Assembly (NCBI RefSeq): GCF_008727775.1
Contig: NZ_CP044232.1
Span: forward strand, 2,914,001-2,978,000
Direction: 5' to 3'
From: Microbacterium lushaniae
Lineage (GTDB): Bacteria > Actinomycetota > Actinomycetes > Actinomycetales > Microbacteriaceae
DNA: 64,000 nucleotides
A program made the position numbers and the translations under genes. The notes beneath the pieces are model-generated. The model searched no databases and had not been told where the DNA came from. It saw only the letters and a list, made by a program, of their open reading frames with translations. Below are positions 40,939 through 55,197 of the stretch, piece by piece (the stretch's first letter is position 1; each line of letters begins with the position of its first letter).

Positions 40939-41445
40939 TCAGCGCGCCGCGGCGCATGACTCACACCGGCCGGCGAGGGCGCTGCGATCCGGTGCCAGGA
41001 CGAATCCCGTCGTCGCCCGCAACTGGTTCGTGAGCGACCGGAAGGCGCCCAGGGGCAGCATCACGACGGCGCCGCAGTCGACGCAGTGCCCGTGCAGGTG
41101 CGCACGGCCCGCGCCCGTGGCCGCGAGGTGGTAGCCGGTGGCGCCGCTGGCGGTGCGGCGCTGGGAGACGACGCCGGATGCGGCGAGCAGATCCAGCGTG
41201 CGGTACACCGTGGCCCTGTGTACGTCGCTTTCGGCCAGAAGGTCCACCACCTCGTCGGCCGTGAGGTGGTCGGCGGAACCGGCGAGCGCGTGCAGCACCG
41301 CCCGGCGCGGTTCGGTCATCCGCTGCCCGTGCGCGCGCAGATGCGCCATCGCCGCACGCAGATCCTCGGCGCGGGCCGCGGCGTGCAGCGCTTCGTGCTC
41401 ATGGCGCGTCGCCGACCACTGTCGCAGCGGGATCGTGTCGTCCAT
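40939..41445 (-). CDS. Fur-family metal-responsive regulator
   Basis: 168 residues. Winged helix (QRMTEPRRAVLHAL, then DVHRATVYRTLDLLAASGVV), followed by the metal and dimer domain with HLHGHCVDCG and a C-terminal CESC, the two Cys pairs of the structural zinc site. GGGGGCC lies upstream of the ATG. It starts 15 bp after the urea transporter stop, making it the last gene of the urease operon. Fur, Zur and Nur (nickel) members share this layout; the urease context favours nickel sensing, but no operator sequence proves it. The N-terminal 25 residues are an extension relative to short Zur proteins. Confidence 0.87.
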   Translation of the reverse strand: MDDTIPLRQWSATRHEHEALHAAARAEDLRAAMAHLRAHGQRMTEPRRAVLHALAGSADHLTADEVVDLLAESDVHRATVYRTLDLLAASGVVSQRRTASGATGYHLAATGAGRAHLHGHCVDCGAVVMLPLGAFRSLTNQLRATTGFVLAPDRSALAGRCESCAAAR

Positions 41446-41460
41446 ATGCGACGGCCCCCT

Positions 41461-42384
41461 TCACGTGCGGCGCAGGCCGCGCACGTAGTACGCCACGATG
41501 AGGGCGACCCACGTCGTGAGGATGTACGGCCACGTGTAGGTCTCCCAGCCCGCACGATGCATGCCGAGAGTGACCACCGCGGTGATGACGATCCACGGCA
41601 GCGCGTAGATCCACGACGCCGTCGAGCTCTTCAGGAACGTCACCGTGAGCGCGATGGCCGTCAGCACACCGGAGTAGTTGGCCAGGCCGTTCGCGAGCTC
41701 GCTCCATGACTCGCCGAGGACGATCGCGGTGAGAGAGCCGAGCACGCTGCCCAGGAGGGCCGCGATGCCCACCTTCCAGCTCGCGACGAACAGGCCGACC
41801 AGGATCAGCCCGCCCGCGATGACGTTGTCGACGAGGACCACCTGAGAGACGTTGGTCAGCAGCGAGCACAGGAAGGCCAGCACGGGCTCATCGGGAAGGT
41901 CCGACGGGGCCGCGTCGACGGCGAGCCGCAGCGTCGACAGCGCGATGATCGTCGCGACGATCACGAAGGGCGCGGTCGTGAACGGCAGGTCGTACCGCTT
42001 GAGCGGCGTCTTGGTGAACAGTGCGTTGACGAGCCATGTGACGGGCCCCGTCGCGACCCCGCCGACGAAGGCCAGGACGTACGACCACCAGGCGTCGCCG
42101 CCCAGTGCGGCGAAGACGGCGGCCCCCACGAGCGTCCCGCAGAAGGACTGCATCCCGGCCGCGACGTCGGCGAGGGTGAAGCCGACCAGCCGCCCGCCCA
42201 GGATCCCGCCCGCGGCGCCGATGAGGGCCAGGATGCCCATGCGCCAGTCGGCGACGAAGAACGCGGCGAGCACGAGCAGGCCCGTGATGACGTTCTGCTG
42301 GAAATAGATCTGCGACGGCCCGTGGAGCATTCCCAGGCCGTACTGCGCCCCCGCGCTGCGCGCGGTCTTCTCTTCCGTCGACAT
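41461..42384 (-). CDS. Urea transporter (UT family)
   Basis: 307 residues with about ten hydrophobic segments in two homologous halves. Each half has a conserved phenylalanine- and proline-bearing pore segment: the first near FQQNVITGLLVL, the second including LPFTTAPFVIVATI. This is the channel-like UT family that passes urea down its gradient. GGGAGGCGCC precedes the ATG. It follows ureD with a 21-bp gap and precedes the Fur-family gene, so uptake, hydrolysis and metal control share one transcript. No ABC-type urea importer is present in the window. Confidence 0.9.
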   Translation of the reverse strand: MSTEEKTARSAGAQYGLGMLHGPSQIYFQQNVITGLLVLAAFFVADWRMGILALIGAAGGILGGRLVGFTLADVAAGMQSFCGTLVGAAVFAALGGDAWWSYVLAFVGGVATGPVTWLVNALFTKTPLKRYDLPFTTAPFVIVATIIALSTLRLAVDAAPSDLPDEPVLAFLCSLLTNVSQVVLVDNVIAGGLILVGLFVASWKVGIAALLGSVLGSLTAIVLGESWSELANGLANYSGVLTAIALTVTFLKSSTASWIYALPWIVITAVVTLGMHRAGWETYTWPYILTTWVALIVAYYVRGLRRT

Positions 42385-42405: not shown

Positions 42406-43440
42406 CTATTTGCGGATCGGCGGCGCCGGCGACCCGGTGATGGCCTCGTGCACGGCGGCCGCCGCCGCCTTCTGCACGGCCAGAGAGGTGATCGTGTCGT
42501 CACCGACGAAGCGCATCCACGCTCCCGCGTCGCCCGGGAGCACGCTGACCCCGAACCGGGCGGCGTCGTCATCGGATGCCTCGACCACGGCAGCGACGCT
42601 GTCCTGCAGCACGTCGGCCACCTCGCGGGCGGGCAGGCGCGGCGTGACCACGTACAGCGACGCCACGATGTCACGGCCGCCGAGCACGGCGGCGCCGCCG
42701 ACATACCCGTCGTGCGGCACCAGGCGCACGCGGTCGATCGCGAGAGGTGCCGGCTCCGGACCCGGGCGCCACAGCTCGAAGTCGGTCGCATACGCGGCGT
42801 AGGCGTGGTGCTCGCCGCGGGTCATGCGCCCGGCGTAGACGGTCTCCGCCGCGATGAGCGTGGCCCCGGGATGCACGTCGGCATGCAGCCGCTGGTAGAA
42901 GCGCGACTGGGCGTAGGGGATGACGGGGTCGGGGAGGAACTCGACGTACGCGCCGTCGGCGAGGTCGAGGTTGATGAGCGAGGTGGCGTACCCCGACTCC
43001 ATCCGGTAGATCTTCGTGTGCGCCTGCGTCGTGACGAACGCCGACGTGTCGGGCCCGAAGGTGAGATCCATGCGCTGCCGGTCGTTGTGGAGGATGCCTC
43101 CCCCGGTGGTAAGGATGTACGTGTACGGCATGTCGGGTCTGGCGAGGTTGTAGTACAGCGGCCGCATGATCTGCAGCGGCGACTTCTGGAAGTGGTGCAC
43201 GAGTTCGGTGCGGCGAGCACCCTCGGGTCCGCGCAGCGCGAAACCGAGTTCGAGGATCCCCACCTTGCCGGGGCTTCCGACCGGCAAGGTGTGCGCCGCC
43301 GTGCCGTACCGGGCGACCTCGACCGGCACGTGCGCCGGCTCGAAGTGCGCGGGCTGCAGCCGCGGCCCGCCGTGGAGGGGGACGACGCCCGGATCGTGAC
43401 GCTCCACGTCCACGTCGCCGCCCACCGCGGGGATCGTCAC
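42406..43440 (-). CDS. ureD: Urease accessory protein UreD
   Basis: 344 residues from a GTG that overlaps the ureG stop (GTGA). Beta-rich UreD/UreH features: ELVHHFQKSPLQIMRPLYYN, ILTTGGGILHNDRQRMDLTF, AFVTTQAHTKIYRM and ATLIAAETVYAGRMTRGE. UreD forms a tunnel-lined scaffold with UreF and UreG that guides nickel into apo-urease. Upstream codons in the frame (to 43470) would overlap ureG further and are unlikely. Order ureF-ureG-ureD is as in many actinobacteria. Confidence 0.92.
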   Translation of the reverse strand: MTIPAVGGDVDVERHDPGVVPLHGGPRLQPAHFEPAHVPVEVARYGTAAHTLPVGSPGKVGILELGFALRGPEGARRTELVHHFQKSPLQIMRPLYYNLARPDMPYTYILTTGGGILHNDRQRMDLTFGPDTSAFVTTQAHTKIYRMESGYATSLINLDLADGAYVEFLPDPVIPYAQSRFYQRLHADVHPGATLIAAETVYAGRMTRGEHHAYAAYATDFELWRPGPEPAPLAIDRVRLVPHDGYVGGAAVLGGRDIVASLYVVTPRLPAREVADVLQDSVAAVVEASDDDAARFGVSVLPGDAGAWMRFVGDDTITSLAVQKAAAAAVHEAITGSPAPPIRK

Positions 43441-44072
43441 GACACCAGCTCGCCCTGGCGCGCCCGCCACGTGGCCAGGATCGTGTCGAAAAGCTCCTGC
43501 ACGCCGGTGCCGTCGAGCGAGTTCGTCAGGACGACCGGCTTGCCGCCGCGCACCGCATGGGCGTCGCGCTCCATGACCGACAGATCGGTGCGGACGTACT
43601 GCGCGATGTCGATCTTGTTGATGACGAGGATGTCGCTCTCGGTGATGCCGGGGCCGCGCTTGCGGGGCATCTTCTCGCCTTCGGAGGTGTCCAGGACGAA
43701 GACGAACACGTCGGCCAGCGACGGCGAGAAGGTCAGCGTGAGGTTGTCGCCTCCCGACTCGTACAGCAGCGTGTCGATGTCGGGGAAGCGCTCGAGCATC
43801 TCGTCGCCGGCCGCCAGGTTCATGGTGGGATCGTCACGCACCGCCGTGTGCGGGCAGGCCCCCGTCTCGACTCCGACGACGCGGTCGGGGTCGAGCACGC
43901 CGGCCAGCTCGCGGCGCACGTGGTGCGCGTCCTCCTGTGTGTAGATGTCGTTCGTGATGACCCCGGGCACGCGGCCCGCGGCGATGAAGATGGGCACGAG
44001 CGCCTCAGTGAGGGCGGTCTTGCCCGACCCTACGGGGCCGCCGATACCGACGCGAAGCACGTTCTCGCTCAT
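43437..44072 (-). CDS. ureG: Urease accessory GTPase UreG
   Basis: 211 residues from ATG 44072 (AGGA seven bases upstream). SIMIBI-class GTPase: P-loop GGPVGSGKTALTEAL (11-25), VITNDIYTQEDAHHV, the metal-binding CPH motif in ETGACPHTAVRDD, ESGGDNLTLTF, and the guanine motif NKID. Nickel and GTP binding drive dimerisation and nickel delivery to urease. A longer open frame continues upstream into ureF antisense-like sequence and is not used. It is coupled to ureD by a GTGA overlap. Confidence 0.95.
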   Translation of the reverse strand: MSENVLRVGIGGPVGSGKTALTEALVPIFIAAGRVPGVITNDIYTQEDAHHVRRELAGVLDPDRVVGVETGACPHTAVRDDPTMNLAAGDEMLERFPDIDTLLYESGGDNLTLTFSPSLADVFVFVLDTSEGEKMPRKRGPGITESDILVINKIDIAQYVRTDLSVMERDAHAVRGGKPVVLTNSLDGTGVQELFDTILATWRARQGELVS

Positions 44073-44106: not shown

Positions 44107-44820
44107 TCAACTCGCGAACAGGCGCGCTTCGGCCCGCTCGTGCCCGGCCGACATGATGTCGCCGACCGGCGTGAATCCGCCGATGTCGTCGACGGGGCGC
44201 GCGAGTGCGTCCTCGGTGACGACTTCGATGACCGGCTGGATGCGGCGCAGCAGCACTTGTGCGCTGCGGTGGTCGGCCAGGCGCAGACGCAGGGCGGCGA
44301 AGGCGAAGCTCGCCGCGAATGCGAACAGGTCGGACGCGACCGCCTCCGCCACCGGCACCCCGGTCGCGGCGTAGCAGACCGCCGTCGCCACCGGCTGGCA
44401 GCCCGGCGTCTGCTTCGCCCGCACCCGGGCCGCCCACACGGCGATGTCGTCTGCGCCGGGAGTCCCCTCGAAGATCTCGCTCGCCACGTCGGCGAGCTGC
44501 CGGCCGCTGCGGACGCTGGCCATGCGCAGTTCGGCGTTGAGCTTCGAGGCGAACAGGATGCGGTCGATGGAGGCGACCGCATCCCAGTCACCGCGCGATG
44601 CGCTGCCGTGCGCACGTGCCAGCGCCGTGGCGTCGCCCGGCCCGACCGAGGCGACAAGGAGGTCCTCGAGCAGCCCTTCCAGACTCTCCCGGTCGACCTG
44701 TCCGGCCTGATGGAACCCCTCCAGACCGTGCGACATCGTATAGAAGCCGCTGGGGAACGCCGAGTCCGTGAGCTGGAGGCTGACCAGCCGCGTCGCCACC
44801 GCCGAAGCCGTGCTCGTCAT
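44107..44820 (-). CDS. ureF: Urease accessory protein UreF
   Basis: 237 residues, all-helical. UreF signatures: LQLTDSAFPSGFYTMSHGLEGF at the N-terminus (location residues about 15-36) and RRIQPVIEVVTEDALARPVDDIGGFTP near the C-terminus. UreF activates UreG and gates nickel transfer as part of the UreD-UreF-UreG complex. It starts 7 bp after the ureC stop and ends 34 bp before ureG. The predicted C-terminus (HERAEARLFAS) contains the conserved arginine used to contact UreD. Confidence 0.92.
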   Translation of the reverse strand: MTSTASAVATRLVSLQLTDSAFPSGFYTMSHGLEGFHQAGQVDRESLEGLLEDLLVASVGPGDATALARAHGSASRGDWDAVASIDRILFASKLNAELRMASVRSGRQLADVASEIFEGTPGADDIAVWAARVRAKQTPGCQPVATAVCYAATGVPVAEAVASDLFAFAASFAFAALRLRLADHRSAQVLLRRIQPVIEVVTEDALARPVDDIGGFTPVGDIMSAGHERAEARLFAS

Positions 44821-44827
44821 GGGCGCC

Positions 44828-46551
44828 TCATACGAGGAAGAACAGCTGGGTCAGTGGGAGCGTCTGGGCGGGATCGATGTGGGCAGGCTGCCCATCGATC
44901 GTGACCGCATACGTCTCGGGGTCGACCGTGATCTCGGGCATGGCGTTGTTGCGGACCATGTCGTCCTTGCCCAACGACCGGGTGTTGTGCACCGGGAAGA
45001 TCTGACTCTGCAGTCCCAGTTGCTCCGGCACACCCTTCTCGATCGACACCTTGGACATGAACGTCGCACGGGTCTTCTGCAGCGTCTGCCCGAAGGCGCC
45101 GAACGCGGGCCGGTAGTAGACCGGCTGCGGGGTCGGCAGGGAGGCGTTGGGGTCGCCCATGAGCGCCCAGTTGATGAGGCCGCCCTTGATCACCAGCTTC
45201 GGCTTGGCGGCGAAGGTGTCGATCGGCCACAGCACGATGTCGGCCATCTTCCCCGGCTCCAGGGATCCGACGTAGTCGGAGATCCCGTGCGTGATCGCGG
45301 GGTTGATGGTCACTTTCGCGAGGTAGCGCAGCACGCGGAAGTTGTCGTTGCCCTCCGCATCCTCCGGGAGCTTGCCGCGCTTGTCCTTGCAGTGGTGCGC
45401 GATCTGGAAGGCCCGTGTCACCGACTCCCCGATGCGCCCCATGGCCTGCGAGTCCGAGGAGATCATGGAGATGACCCCGAGGTCCTGCAGCACCGTCTCG
45501 GCCGAGATCGTCTCGGCGCGCACGCGCGAGTCGGCGAACGCGACGTCCTCGGGGGCGTCGTAGGAGAGGTGGTGGCACACCATGACCATGTCCAGCAGCT
45601 CGTCGACCGAGTTCACGGTGTAGGGCAGCGTCGGGTTGGTCGAGGAGGGCAGGACGTTGGCCTGCCCGGCCATCCGGATGATGTCGGGGGCGTGCCCGCC
45701 GCCGGCGCCCTCGGTGTGGTACGTGTGGATGGTCCGCCCGTTGATGGCCGAGATCGTGTTCTCGACGAAACCCGACTCGTTGAGACTGTCGGTGTGCACG
45801 GCGATCTGGATGTCGTACTCGTCCGCGACGGCGAGGGCCTGGCTCAGCGCCTCCGGCGTCGTGCCCCAGTCCTCGTGGACCTTCAGGCCGCCCGCACCCG
45901 CTTCCACCTGCTCGATGAGGGCCTGCGGCAGCGAGCCGTTGCCCTTCCCGTGGATGCCCACGTTGATGGGGAGCGCGTCGAAGGACTGCAGCATCCGGTG
46001 GATGTTCCACGTGCCCGGCGTGCAGGTCGTGCCGTTGGTGCCGTCGGTGGGCCCGGTGCCACCGCCGAAGAGCGTCGTGATGCCGTTGGACAGGGCGGCC
46101 TGGGCCTGCTGCGGCGTGATGAAGTGCACGTGCGGGTCGAGCGCTCCGGCCGTGGCGATGAGGTGCTCGCCGGCGATGACCTCGGTCCCCGGCCCGACGA
46201 CGAGATGCGGGTCGACGCCCTTCTGCGTCTGCGGGTTGCCCGACTTGCCGACCCCGACGATGACGCCGTCGCGGACGCCGATGTCGCCCTTGACGACCCG
46301 AGGATCGGGTCCATGACGATGACGTTCGTGATCACCAGATCCAGCGACCCCTGCGATGAGCTCGCGCGGGCATCGGATCCCATGCCGTCGCGGGCCGACT
46401 TGCCGCCTCCGTAGACGACCTCGTCGCCGTAGCTGTCGGAGGCGTAGTCCTTCTCGATCTCGATGACGAGGTTCGTGTCGGCCAGCGTCACGCGGTCACC
46501 GACGGTGGGTCCGAACAGGTCGGTGTACTGCTGCCTGCTGAGGATAGCCAT
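44828..46551 (-). pseudogene. ureC: Urease alpha subunit, split by a one-base frameshift
   Basis: Reading from ATG 46551 gives a normal UreC start ([19 protein letters not shown], then [15 protein letters not shown]). At about 46297-46299 the frame slips: the continuation [18 protein letters not shown] is in the next frame and runs intact to 44828. Inserting one G/C there gives 575 codons (574 residues), the exact UreC size. Active-site parts are all present: HVHF, the carbamylated-lysine motif [15 protein letters not shown], and [11 protein letters not shown]. Because the rest of the operon is intact and the lesion is a single base in CCC, a sequencing or assembly error is at least as likely as a real mutation. 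As written, no full-length subunit is encoded. Confidence 0.85.
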
Positions 46552-46553
46552 GA

Positions 46554-47030
46554 TTACTTGCTTCCCTTCTTCTTGGCAGGCGCGGCGGTGTTGCCGGCTT
46601 TGCCCTCCGACTTGCTCGCTTCTCCGGCGGCGGGCTTGCCCGCCGTGCTGTCCGGCTCGCCGTCGGCGAACCCGCGCTCGCGCAGCCGGCGCATCGCGTC
46701 GACCTTGGTCTGCGGGGCGTCGAGGCCGCCGTTGACGAGTCCGTTGAACCCGATCACGACGCGCGCACCGGCGTAGGCCACGAGCGGTACCTGCTTGGTC
46801 TCGCCCGGCTCGAAGCGCACGCCGGTGCCGGCCGGGATGTCCAGGTGCATGCCCCACGCCTTCTCGCGCGGGAAGAGCATCGCGGAGTTGACCTCGAAGA
46901 AGTGGAAGTGCGATCCGATCTGCACGGGGCGGTCCCCGGTGTTGGTGACGTTGACCGTCACGGTGGGACGGCCCGCGTTGATCTCGATCTCGTCCGGTCC
47001 GTGGTGGTAGGTGGGCCGTCTGTTGTGCAT
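46554..47030 (-). CDS. ureB: Urease beta subunit with low-complexity C-terminal extension
   Basis: 158 residues. Residues 1-105 are canonical UreB ([48 protein letters not shown]). The last 50 residues are a charged Lys, Ala, Ser and Gly-rich tail (for instance [21 protein letters not shown]), which ordinary UreB lacks; they may be disordered. The ATG has AGGAGAAG upstream at suitable spacing. It lies two bases before the ureC start and is separated from ureA by the CbiX-like gene, an unusual operon order. Confidence 0.92.
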
Positions 47031-47053: not shown

Positions 47054-47950
47054 TCAGCGCCGGGAACGGTGGCCGTCCCCGGACGAGGGGAACGCTGCGC
47101 GGGATGCGGGGGTGTGGGCGTGCGCGTCGTGGGAGTGCGACGCGGTGTCGGTGTGGTCGTGCGCGGGGTCCGCGCCGTGGGAATGGGTGTGGGGGTGCGC
47201 GTGCGCGTGCCCCTCCTCGAATGCATGCGAGTGGGCGTATCCATGGCCGTGGTCGGCGAGGAGGCCGGCGTCGATCCCGTCCTCACCGGCGTCCAGCGCC
47301 TCGGCCGCCTCCTGCACGCGCGTCCTCACGGTCCGCACGATCGCCGCATCGCTCAGCAGGGGCCCGCCGAACTCCGCACCCGGGGCATCCAGGTGTTCCG
47401 CAAGGCCGGCCGGCACGGCGATCACGTGCGCGCGCCCGAGCGTGTGCAGTCGCTCGGCGGCCGTGGCCGCCTCCGCGGCATCCCCGATGGCCACAGCGAC
47501 CTCCGGGAGGGCGCCGTTGGCCGAGACGAGGTACGCCACGCGGTGCAGCTCCGCCTCGTCGAAGGGGTTCGAGCGCGGTGCGACGATGAGCAGCGCGGCT
47601 TCCGGATCGACGGCGCGTGCGCGGTTGGCCGCCGTGCGCAGCCACGCCGTGAGGTGGTCGAGCTGACCGAACGGCCGCGCGAGGGCGAGCCTGCCCGGAT
47701 GCTGCGGAGCGAGCCATTTGAGGGTCTTGGCAGTGTCGGCCACCATGACCGGGTCCCGGCCGAAGGTCATCGGCACGACCACGACGCGCGCGCCGTCGCC
47801 CACGAGTTCCGACACGACGTTGTGCAGGCCCCTGCCCGGGGCGGTGGCGTGGGCGTGATCCAGCTGCGGCACGATGCGGGCGAGATCCGCCCCCTGTGCC
47901 GCCTCGTGGCCTCCGACGAGGACCACGTGGATCGCTGCCCCGCCCGTCAT
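47054..47950 (-). CDS. CbiX/sirohydrochlorin-chelatase-like protein with His-rich tail in the urease operon
   Basis: 298 residues. Residues about 8-230 resemble CbiX-type chelatases: [45 protein letters not shown] and [16 protein letters not shown], although the usual HGSR motif is replaced by GGHE. The last 67 residues hold 17 histidines in His-Ala, His-Ser, His-Asp and His-Thr alternation, a strong Ni/Zn-binding tail. It sits inside the operon between ureA and ureB; its ATG overlaps the ureA stop (ATGA). No ureE is present in the cluster, so it may serve as the nickel store or chaperone for urease. That role is inferred, not shown; cobalt or sirohaem chelation is the alternative. Confidence 0.78.
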
Positions 47951-48261
47951 CGCGGTGAGCCGCCGATGGGATCGTGGCAGGAGACGAGCTTGGTGCCGTC
48001 GGGGAAGGTCGCCTCCACCTGCAGGAGCGTGATGCGCTCGCGCACCCCCGCCATGCACTGGTCGACGTTGACGACCTTCTTGCCGAGTTCCATGCACTCC
48101 GCGACCGTGTGGCCGTCGCGCGCGCCTTCGAGGATGGCCTCGGTGACGAGCGCCTGCGCCTCGCTCATGTTGAGCTTGGTGCCGCGCTCGCGCCGTCGCC
48201 GCGCCAGGTCGGCGACCTGGTAGACGTACAGCTTGTCGATCTCGCGGGGAGTGAGGTCCAT
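47947..48261 (-). CDS. ureA: Urease gamma subunit
   Basis: 104 residues from ATG 48261 with CAGGAG six bases upstream; the frame opens far upstream without urease character. The whole sequence fits Ure[63 protein letters not shown]. It forms part of the UreABC heterotrimer that hydrolyses urea in the cytoplasm. As the first gene it defines the operon start; the divergent MFS exporter lies 211 bp away. Confidence 0.95.
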
Positions 48262-54047: not shown

Positions 54048-54425
54048 TCAGAGCGCTCGCCCGATGGCCAGGCCGACGAAGGCGAGGACGACGGTCAGGA
54101 CGAGCATGCCGAGGGAGTTCGCGAAGAAACGCCCGAACGTCCGCTTCTGCAGCATGTGGACGGTGTCGACCATCGCGGTGCTGAAGGTCGTGAACCCGCC
54201 CATGAGACCTCCGCCCAGCACGAACAACCAATCCGCGTCGAGGACGGAGGAGTCGGAGAGACCGGTGAGGAAGCCGAGGAGGAGCGAACCGGTGGAATTG
54301 ATCACGAACGTGCCCCACGGGTACCCCGAATGCACGTTCCGCATCACGAGGCCGTCGGTGGTGAACCGCAGGGCGGCCCCGAGACCGCCGCCGAGGGCCG
54401 CCAGCAGGAAGATGCCGATGCTCAT
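54048..54425 (-). CDS. crcB: Fluoride channel CrcB/Fluc, second subunit
   Basis: 125 residues, four helices. Family motifs: GGGLGAALRFTTDGL in helix 1, GTFVINSTGSLLLGFL, and GGLMGGFTTFSTAM with the conserved Phe-Thr-Thr-Phe break and sodium site. Fluc channels export fluoride as dual-topology dimers. The ATG at 54425 overlaps the stop of the other crcB gene (ATGA). Paired unequal copies such as these usually form a heterodimer with each subunit in a fixed orientation. Confidence 0.93.
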   Translation of the reverse strand: MSIGIFLLAALGGGLGAALRFTTDGLVMRNVHSGYPWGTFVINSTGSLLLGFLTGLSDSSVLDADWLFVLGGGLMGGFTTFSTAMVDTVHMLQKRTFGRFFANSLGMLVLTVVLAFVGLAIGRAL

Positions 54426-54889
54426 GACGCGGCCTTCCCGTCTCGCGGCCGCCACACGAGGCCGGCGAGCCAGATGCCGACCGCCGCGGCGGCGATGCCG
54501 CCCAGGAGCGTGCCCAGCGAATACAGCACTGCTCCCAGGACGTCCGACTCGAAGAGCTCCGCGGTGTTCGTCGCGAGCGAGCTGTACGTGGTGAAGCCGC
54601 CCATGAACCCCGTGCCGGCGAACAGCCGGAAATCGCGCCGACCGGGGGTCTCCGGCTTGCGGGATGCCAGGCCCGTCAGCAAGAGGCCGAGCAGGAACGC
54701 TCCGACGAGGTTGGCGATGAGCACCGGCCAGTCGTCGCCAGCATCCGAGGGCATCGCCAGGGTGAGGCCGAGGCGCGCCGAGGCCCCCAGCGCCCCGCCG
54801 AGGAACACGAACGCGATCAGCTTGGGCTGAGCGTACGCCGGCCGGGGAATGGGGTGGGTGGTATCGCGTGCGTGCTCGACCACTGTCAT
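54422..54889 (-). CDS. crcB: Fluoride channel CrcB/Fluc, first subunit
   Basis: 155 residues. A 30-residue soluble N-terminus precedes four helices: FLGGALGASARLGLTLAMP, LIANLVGAFLLGLLLTGLA and GTGFMGGFTTYSSLA contain the conserved Arg, Asn and FTTYS features. The ATG at 54889 (cATATTCC upstream) is the likely start; upstream in-frame codons run over the glutaredoxin gene. It forms a pair with the second crcB gene by ATGA overlap. The 41 bp upstream are too short to hold a fluoride riboswitch, and I see none of its conserved parts. Confidence 0.92.
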   Translation of the reverse strand: MTVVEHARDTTHPIPRPAYAQPKLIAFVFLGGALGASARLGLTLAMPSDAGDDWPVLIANLVGAFLLGLLLTGLASRKPETPGRRDFRLFAGTGFMGGFTTYSSLATNTAELFESDVLGAVLYSLGTLLGGIAAAAVGIWLAGLVWRPRDGKAAS

Positions 54890-54930
54890 ATTCCGAAGCG
54901 TAGGGAGGACGCTCGGACTCGAATAGGGCC

Positions 54931-55197
54931 CTAGGGCCTGCCCGCGTCCAGCAGCGCGTCGCGCAGCCGATCGGCCGACACGCGCCAGTGCGCGTGCAGC
55001 GCTCCGTCGATCAGGACGACGGGGATCTTCTCCCACCACCGGTCATACAGGGCGGGGTCCTCCAGGATCGACACGCGCTCCACGGCGACGGCGTCTGCCA
55101 CGTCGTCGGGGAGGTCCGCCACGACGGTCTCGACGATCTCCTCGGCGACATCGCACAGATGACATTCCGGCTTGCCGATGAGGGTGAGGGTCGTCAC
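54931..55197 (-). CDS. Glutaredoxin-family thiol oxidoreductase
   Basis: 88 residues, GTG start. Thioredoxin fold: LTLIGKPECHLCDVAEEIV carries the CHLC dithiol (residues 12-15), then the strand IPVVLIDGALHAHWRVS with the cis-Pro loop KIPVV. Typical of the DUF836-type or mycoredoxin-like small redox proteins that reduce disulfides in the cytoplasm. Its stop codon lies inside a perfect 12-bp palindrome, GGCCCTAGGGCC (54927-54938), which may be a short terminator or regulatory site before the crcB pair. Partner unknown. Confidence 0.85.
   Translation of the reverse strand: MTTLTLIGKPECHLCDVAEEIVETVVADLPDDVADAVAVERVSILEDPALYDRWWEKIPVVLIDGALHAHWRVSADRLRDALLDAGRP

Follow-up and report, generated by a model that had tools for sequence, protein, structure and literature searches.

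A chelatase-fold protein with a histidine-rich tail as a candidate nickel donor in an actinobacterial urease clade that lacks UreE

The supply of nickel to ureases that lack UreE has so far been explained by a histidine stretch on UreG (part of PMC2770081). According to passages of the same paper, genomes without ureE usually carry such a stretch at the N- or C-terminus of UreG, exceptions being Bradyrhizobium japonicum and Frankia CcI3; the stretch was suggested to compensate for the missing UreE. One clade of actinobacterial ureases has neither UreE nor the UreG stretch, and carries instead a protein of predicted chelatase fold, here named CBX. The representative analyzed here is encoded in a stretch of 64,000 nucleotides from Microbacterium lushaniae (contig NZ_CP044232.1, positions 2,914,001 to 2,978,000; hereafter the window), where the gene for this protein of 298 residues lies between ureA and ureB (Table 1). 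Based on sequence comparison and structure prediction we propose, with a probability of roughly 0.64, that CBX is a chelatase-fold protein recruited as a dedicated urease accessory, in which it would act as nickel donor.

Urease operons were gathered by matches to UreC, UreE and CBX, and the histidines in the terminal extensions of UreG were counted by one procedure, with UreG start codons picked by Shine-Dalgarno score. The final set of 188 operons comprises 18 with UreE, 32 with CBX, none with both and 138 with neither. UreG bears at least three terminal histidines in 0/18 operons of the UreE type, in 0/31 readable operons of the CBX type (21 have none, nine have one and one has two), and in 106 of the 115 readable operons with neither. 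Most operons have a His-rich element, which is found on UreE or at the N or C end of UreG, and on CBX in this clade alone. Among the genomes of the class with a urease alpha match, the window and 100 more of 102 were used, and further UreC matches from the order sample contributed 40 fetched operons plus L257; repeats were dropped (L204, L205 and L249 are the contigs of L004, L006 and L014, while L258 is a refetch). UreG was not read in 23 operons with neither protein, either because the P-loop pattern missed it (L110, L187, L262 and L273) or because the fetched stretch held no UreG (19 operons), and the contig of one CBX operon, L002, contains no UreG. Reading frames with histidine runs that were labelled ureF, ureC, ureA or urea transporter in the CBX loci looked like upstream shared-frame read-through and were left uncounted.

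Many actinomycetes (many of L182-L202 and L268-L297) have a UreG C-terminal tail that starts with a DPGPMAPH.H lead-in and continues with more histidines. The highest terminal count, 29, is that of L283, an operon without UreE from genome G713; the other operon of this genome, L248, has UreE together with a UreG that lacks histidines.

The preliminary description had pointed to the absence of ureE from the operon. This is confirmed, and extends to the 3.65-Mb one-contig genome of M. lushaniae, in which neither UreE_C nor UreE_N gave a match (E ≤ 0.001). UreE_N was likewise without a match in all 28 CBX genomes searched (M. lushaniae, G635, G639, G822 and 24 others), which are the 32 less G444, G463, G507 and G580. 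As an argument for the role of CBX, however, the missing gene is weak when taken alone. Among the genomes of the class, 5 of 296 had UreE_N above the cut-off and 102 of 296 urease alpha; in the order, UreE_N was above it in 18 of 297. With UreE rare throughout the class, its absence is the norm there and by itself says little. The idea that this absence singles out the CBX operons was rejected on the same count, and the UreG contrast outweighs the bare absence of ureE as evidence. Three operons from genomes of about 0.8-1.1 Mb (L245, L246 and L247) have a UreE with two or three histidines in its last 40 residues and a UreG without terminal histidines, which is read as a minimal nickel system.

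A scan of 84,980 species genomes with the window's CBX, which reaches close relatives only, returned 23 loci, all with CBX between ureA and ureB. The genera include Microbacterium, Humibacter, Microterricola, Sanguibacter, Rhodococcus, Arthrobacter, Mumia and Oerskovia, and further carriers are Cellulomonas, Nocardioides and Corynebacterium halotolerans. Strong matches to the CBX profile (E ≤ 4e-69 for the order and the family, 1e-64 for G123 in the class) were found in 2 of 296 class, 7 of 279 family and 5 of 297 order genomes, M. lushaniae being included in each. After removal of repeats there are 32 distinct CBX operons; in 32/32 the gene is placed between ureA and ureB and has a possible start codon at -4 to +8 bases from the ureA stop. 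A survey of homologues had been named as a check on the preliminary description, and every one of these operons is a urease operon. CBX is uncommon and patchy, yet tied to the urease operon in every case found. The proposal that it is common in the genus was rejected, there being no match in the 12 further genomes of the genus that were listed. Of the 27 genomes that matched in the class search, 25 gave weak and partial matches only (best E values 8.5e-10 to 9.9e-4), which were not counted as CBX and which, by their span, we take to be ordinary chelatases; weak matches in G493 and in G248, G648 and G714 were likewise set aside. No description of the gene was found in open-licence PMC papers.

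The CBX start codon overlaps the TGA stop of ureA as ATGA (gap -4), so that the start does lie within the ureA stop codon as first reported, and ureB begins 23 bases past the CBX stop. The protein contains 28 histidines, 11 in the first 231 residues and 17 in the last 67, the latter count agreeing with the original one; the probability of at least 17 in the tail at the core's own histidine rate is 1.1e-8, a post hoc figure. The sequence A-H-S-H at the start of the tail is kept in 26/26 members of a broad alignment. The tail itself is long and variable, with 9-32 histidines across the relatives, and is probably disordered, the predicted local distance difference test (pLDDT) score being 55-72 per block of ten. 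In the body of the protein, Arg105, Phe130 and Arg137 are invariant (26/26 aligned sequences).

The predicted fold of CBX is that of a two-lobed class II chelatase, similar to SirB and CbiK. Profile-profile comparison of the CBX family with PF01903 (hhalign) gave a probability of 96.9, and weak PF01903 matches (E ≤ 1) are present in 24 of 66 relatives, the best with an E value of 5.3e-5. At E ≤ 1 the window's CBX has no match in Pfam, PF01903 included, or in NCBIfam, and searching PDB sequences with the CBX profile returned chance-level matches only; the initial label of a CbiX-like protein is right at the level of the fold and of the profile comparison. According to part of PMC11301274, the active-site pair of SirB is His10 and His76, and CfbA binds Ni through His9 and His75. 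The first catalytic histidine is present in 65/66 CBX relatives and the following Gly is replaced with Glu, also in 65/66; as the hhalign match starts past this site, the pairing rests on the position directly after strand 1. At the column which hhalign pairs with the second catalytic histidine, no relative has a His (0/66), and 3/66 have one two columns ahead. As aligned, L023 and L252 lack the first histidine too. The motif change that had been described as HGSR altered to GGHE is more aptly seen as a change of HGS to HES, the first histidine being kept. Since the second histidine is absent, the likeness to CfbA that had been put forward is limited to the fold and does not include the nickel-site histidine pair. 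By the sole catalytic feature tested, the CBX family would not be a working class II chelatase. One genome with a CBX urease operon, G123, also contains two other urease alpha matches and a CbiX-type protein (L052) with both catalytic histidines plus a His-rich tail of its own.

By analogy with UreE-UreG and SlyD-HypB, a model for the tail and for docking can be proposed. A SirB/CbiX-type class II chelatase would have lost its second catalytic histidine, and with this residue gone the insertion of metal into tetrapyrroles has probably been lost; a long flexible His-rich tail would have been acquired or kept. CBX would be produced together with UreA, from the ureA-ureB junction, its tail would gather Ni(II), perhaps along with a retained His15/Glu16 site, and its body would dock on UreG or on the UreG-UreF-UreD-urease complex. 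Ni(II) would then be passed to UreG, and UreG, UreF and UreD together would load the urease active site. In this way CBX would fill the job that UreE has in ureABCEFGD operons and that the UreG histidine stretch has in most actinobacterial operons; it is not UreE by domain, and most likely works like UreE. The predicted fold, the place in the operon, the linkage to urease in every operon found, the missing second histidine and the complementary occurrence of His-rich elements are computational results, whereas nickel as the metal of CBX, its affinity, the docking, the transfer to UreG and the loss of tetrapyrrole chemistry are what we infer. As to the UreE-like, tetrapyrrole-free nickel role suggested in the preliminary description, the operon linkage and the UreE and UreG pattern strengthen it and give it good support in outline, whereas the arguments from ureE absence and from CfbA bear less weight than they were given. 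A broader scenario, in which a tetrapyrrole chelatase, having lost one catalytic histidine, turned into a protein metallochaperone that gathers nickel on its tail, docks on the urease activation complex rather than on a tetrapyrrole and moves with ureABCFGD between actinobacterial families, is conceivable at somewhat less than even odds.

The independence of the UreG contrast was judged from a tree of 187 UreC sequences ('quick' LG+G4), with long branches for L257, L298 and L248; L002 was too short to enter. The 31 CBX rows form one clade (Shimodaira-Hasegawa-like approximate likelihood ratio test, SH-aLRT, 99), nested in a set of 51 rows (SH-aLRT 99) whose remaining members are the 18 UreE rows and two others. 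Within the CBX clade, three Rhodococcus operons group beside those of Arthrobacter (SH-aLRT 94); this placement suggests that CBX moves jointly with ureABCFGD. Of the two additional rows in the set of 51, L257 (genome G625) had been selected for a UreC 60% identical to that of the window in a genome outside the UreE and CBX match lists. Its operon yielded neither UreE nor CBX, and the N-terminus of its UreG is strongly His-rich, starting MTAHTHGNDQGHSHGHSHG. This fits the prediction of the compensation idea, with a tree position made unsure by long branches. The other row, L298, is joined with L248 by long branches and has no readable UreG. In a UreC-based check of 185 order genomes, three ureases were at least 76% identical to that of the window (M. 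lushaniae itself, G635 and G639), each from a genome with CBX; the next UreC, at 61%, is that of G281, a UreE genome.

Several points weigh against a nickel-donor role for CBX. Because the CBX ureases form one clade, the UreG contrast is close to a single evolutionary event: the independent pairs number one on well-supported branches and two on all branches, and with these significance is impossible. Among the operons with neither UreE nor CBX, nine have fewer than three counted terminal UreG histidines. Four of the nine (L115, L266, L267 and L269) stem from the choice of start codon, a His-rich stretch being found just upstream of it, and the other five (L136, L140, L157, L173 and L180), with 0-2 counted histidines, are true or possible exceptions, L157 having a VHIDHDRVH stretch further upstream of the chosen start. 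On account of these five, urease may be able to do without a His-rich donor. A His-rich UreG is encoded in at least four operons with neither protein (L113, L116, L117 and L283) that belong to genomes with UreE elsewhere (G049, G266, G290 and G713), so that the nickel-donor rule holds per operon and not per genome. In Klebsiella, the UreE tail was unnecessary for maturation (part of PMC7055735), which argues against a strict need for a tail. Finally, the ureC of the window is split between two frames, a point absent from the preliminary description. TIGR01792 matches it from 82 to 567 in one frame, with two matches genome-wide, and the frame changes at 46290-46310, about residue 82-90, after ...VIVMDPILG; in relatives such as L252 ureC is in a single frame. 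Either the urease encoded in this assembly is possibly inactive or the split in ureC is an assembly error; the argument for the role of CBX rests on the relatives.

CBX could also be a store or detoxifying buffer for nickel (or zinc/cobalt) that is made together with urease and does not dock on UreG, the rationale being that urease cells import much nickel. Its long variable tail resembles Helicobacter Hpn and HspA, which have been proposed as nickel stores (part of PMC4671568). For B. megaterium CbiX-L, a passage of PMC7689651 proposes metal storage and delivery for the C-terminal region with its His-rich stretch, and deletion of this region left cobalt insertion unaffected. A store, however, need not exclude UreE or the UreG stretch, and both are absent from the CBX operons (UreE 0/32, stretch 0/31); the conserved residues of the body also point to a partner or a site beyond the tail, and we regard mere storage as unlikely. 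It is improbable that CBX serves urease otherwise, for instance by supporting the structure or folding of UreA/UreB or in regulation, with the tail handling another metal: although the gene sits between two structural genes and outside the accessory group, operons of the UreE type and of the His-rich UreG type have ureA, ureB and ureC without CBX, and the distribution of CBX tracks the nickel-donor elements. That CBX has remained a chelatase of sirohydrochlorin (for cobalt, iron or nickel) and is in the urease operon by chance is very improbable since, despite the SirB/CbiK fold, the weak PF01903 matches, the first catalytic histidine and the occasional nearby one, the names sirohydrochlorin chelatase or CbiX given to several relatives in public records (others being hypothetical protein), and the lack of a PF01903 match in M. 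lushaniae and in 8 of 24 other CBX genomes, where a chelatase could be missing, the second catalytic histidine is absent throughout and the first also in the two relatives named above, CBX is inside urease operons in 32/32 cases (flanks unsearched for tetrapyrrole genes), and 16 of the 24 genomes own separate PF01903 proteins.

The gene order first given for the operon, i.e., ureA, CBX, ureB, ureC, ureF, ureG, ureD, a urea transporter and a Fur-family gene, is borne out by coordinates and Pfam matches (Table 1). A Fur-family regulator 50% identical to that of the window lies upstream of ureA in L005; that the regulator of the window responds to nickel and controls its urease operon is a guess. 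On the complete chromosome of Arthrobacter sp. ATA002 (L016), ureC and ureG of the CBX operon each appear as two tblastn pieces, as if frame-broken. Elsewhere in the window, two overlapping reading frames (54048-54455 and 54422-55039) encode small membrane proteins, which we take to resemble a CrcB fluoride exporter pair.

Table 1. Urease operon of the M. lushaniae window and sites within CBX, in window positions
Feature	Position	Strand	Basis or remark
ureA (urease gamma)	47947..48261	-	PF00547 5.9e-39
CBX, class-II-chelatase-fold protein with His-rich C-terminal tail	47054..47950	-	298 aa
GHEA, CBX residues 14-17, place of first catalytic His	47900..47911	-	HGS to HES
CBX residues 60-72, place of second catalytic His	47735..47773	-	no His in column, 66/66
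His-rich CBX tail, residues 232-298	47057..47257	-	17 His
ureB (urease beta)	46554..47030	-	PF00699 1e-41
ureC (urease alpha)	44828..46551	-	TIGR01792; two reading frames joining near 46299
ureF	44107..44820	-	PF01730 2.3e-32
ureG	43437..44072	-	TIGR00101 6.7e-72; starts MSENVLRV, both terminal extensions without His
ureD	42406..43470	-	PF01774 3.6e-48
Urea transporter (UT family)	41461..42384	-	PF03253 1.1e-58
Fur-family regulator, after urea transporter	40939-41445		Pfam

If the proposed role is true, CBX would represent a nickel-donor family with a new fold and a third way in which evolution has met the loss of UreE, and would connect metal insertion into tetrapyrroles with metal insertion into proteins. 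The name sirohydrochlorin chelatase in public records would then need correcting. Related operons in which the same job is done on three different proteins would moreover offer a system to probe the contribution of His-rich donors.

Among known systems, SirB, CbiK, CbiX-L and CfbA differ from CBX, in which the second active-site histidine is absent and a Glu follows the first; the location in urease operons also sets CBX apart from class II chelatases, as does the lack of a PF01903 match for the protein of the window. UreE resembles CBX in being encoded in the urease operon, in having a His-rich C-terminal tail and in occurring together with a UreG without a histidine stretch. In contrast to UreE, CBX has no UreE_N or UreE_C domain and has a chelatase fold, and its gene is between ureA and ureB, whereas that of UreE follows ureC. 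GNRH, a motif of the UreE dimer interface (part of PMC13044922), is not in the sequence of the window's CBX. The UreG histidine stretch of M. tuberculosis, Streptomyces and plants is, like the CBX tail, a His-rich element in systems without ureE; in the CBX operons, however, UreG lacks the stretch and a separate protein bears the His-rich tail. In E. coli, SlyD, which has a metal-binding tail, works with HypB, a G3E GTPase without a histidine stretch of its own (parts of PMC2770081 and PMC7055735). Like CBX, SlyD combines the fold of a different kind of enzyme with a tail for metal binding, but SlyD is a prolyl isomerase serving hydrogenase, whereas CBX has a predicted chelatase fold and is tied to urease operons.
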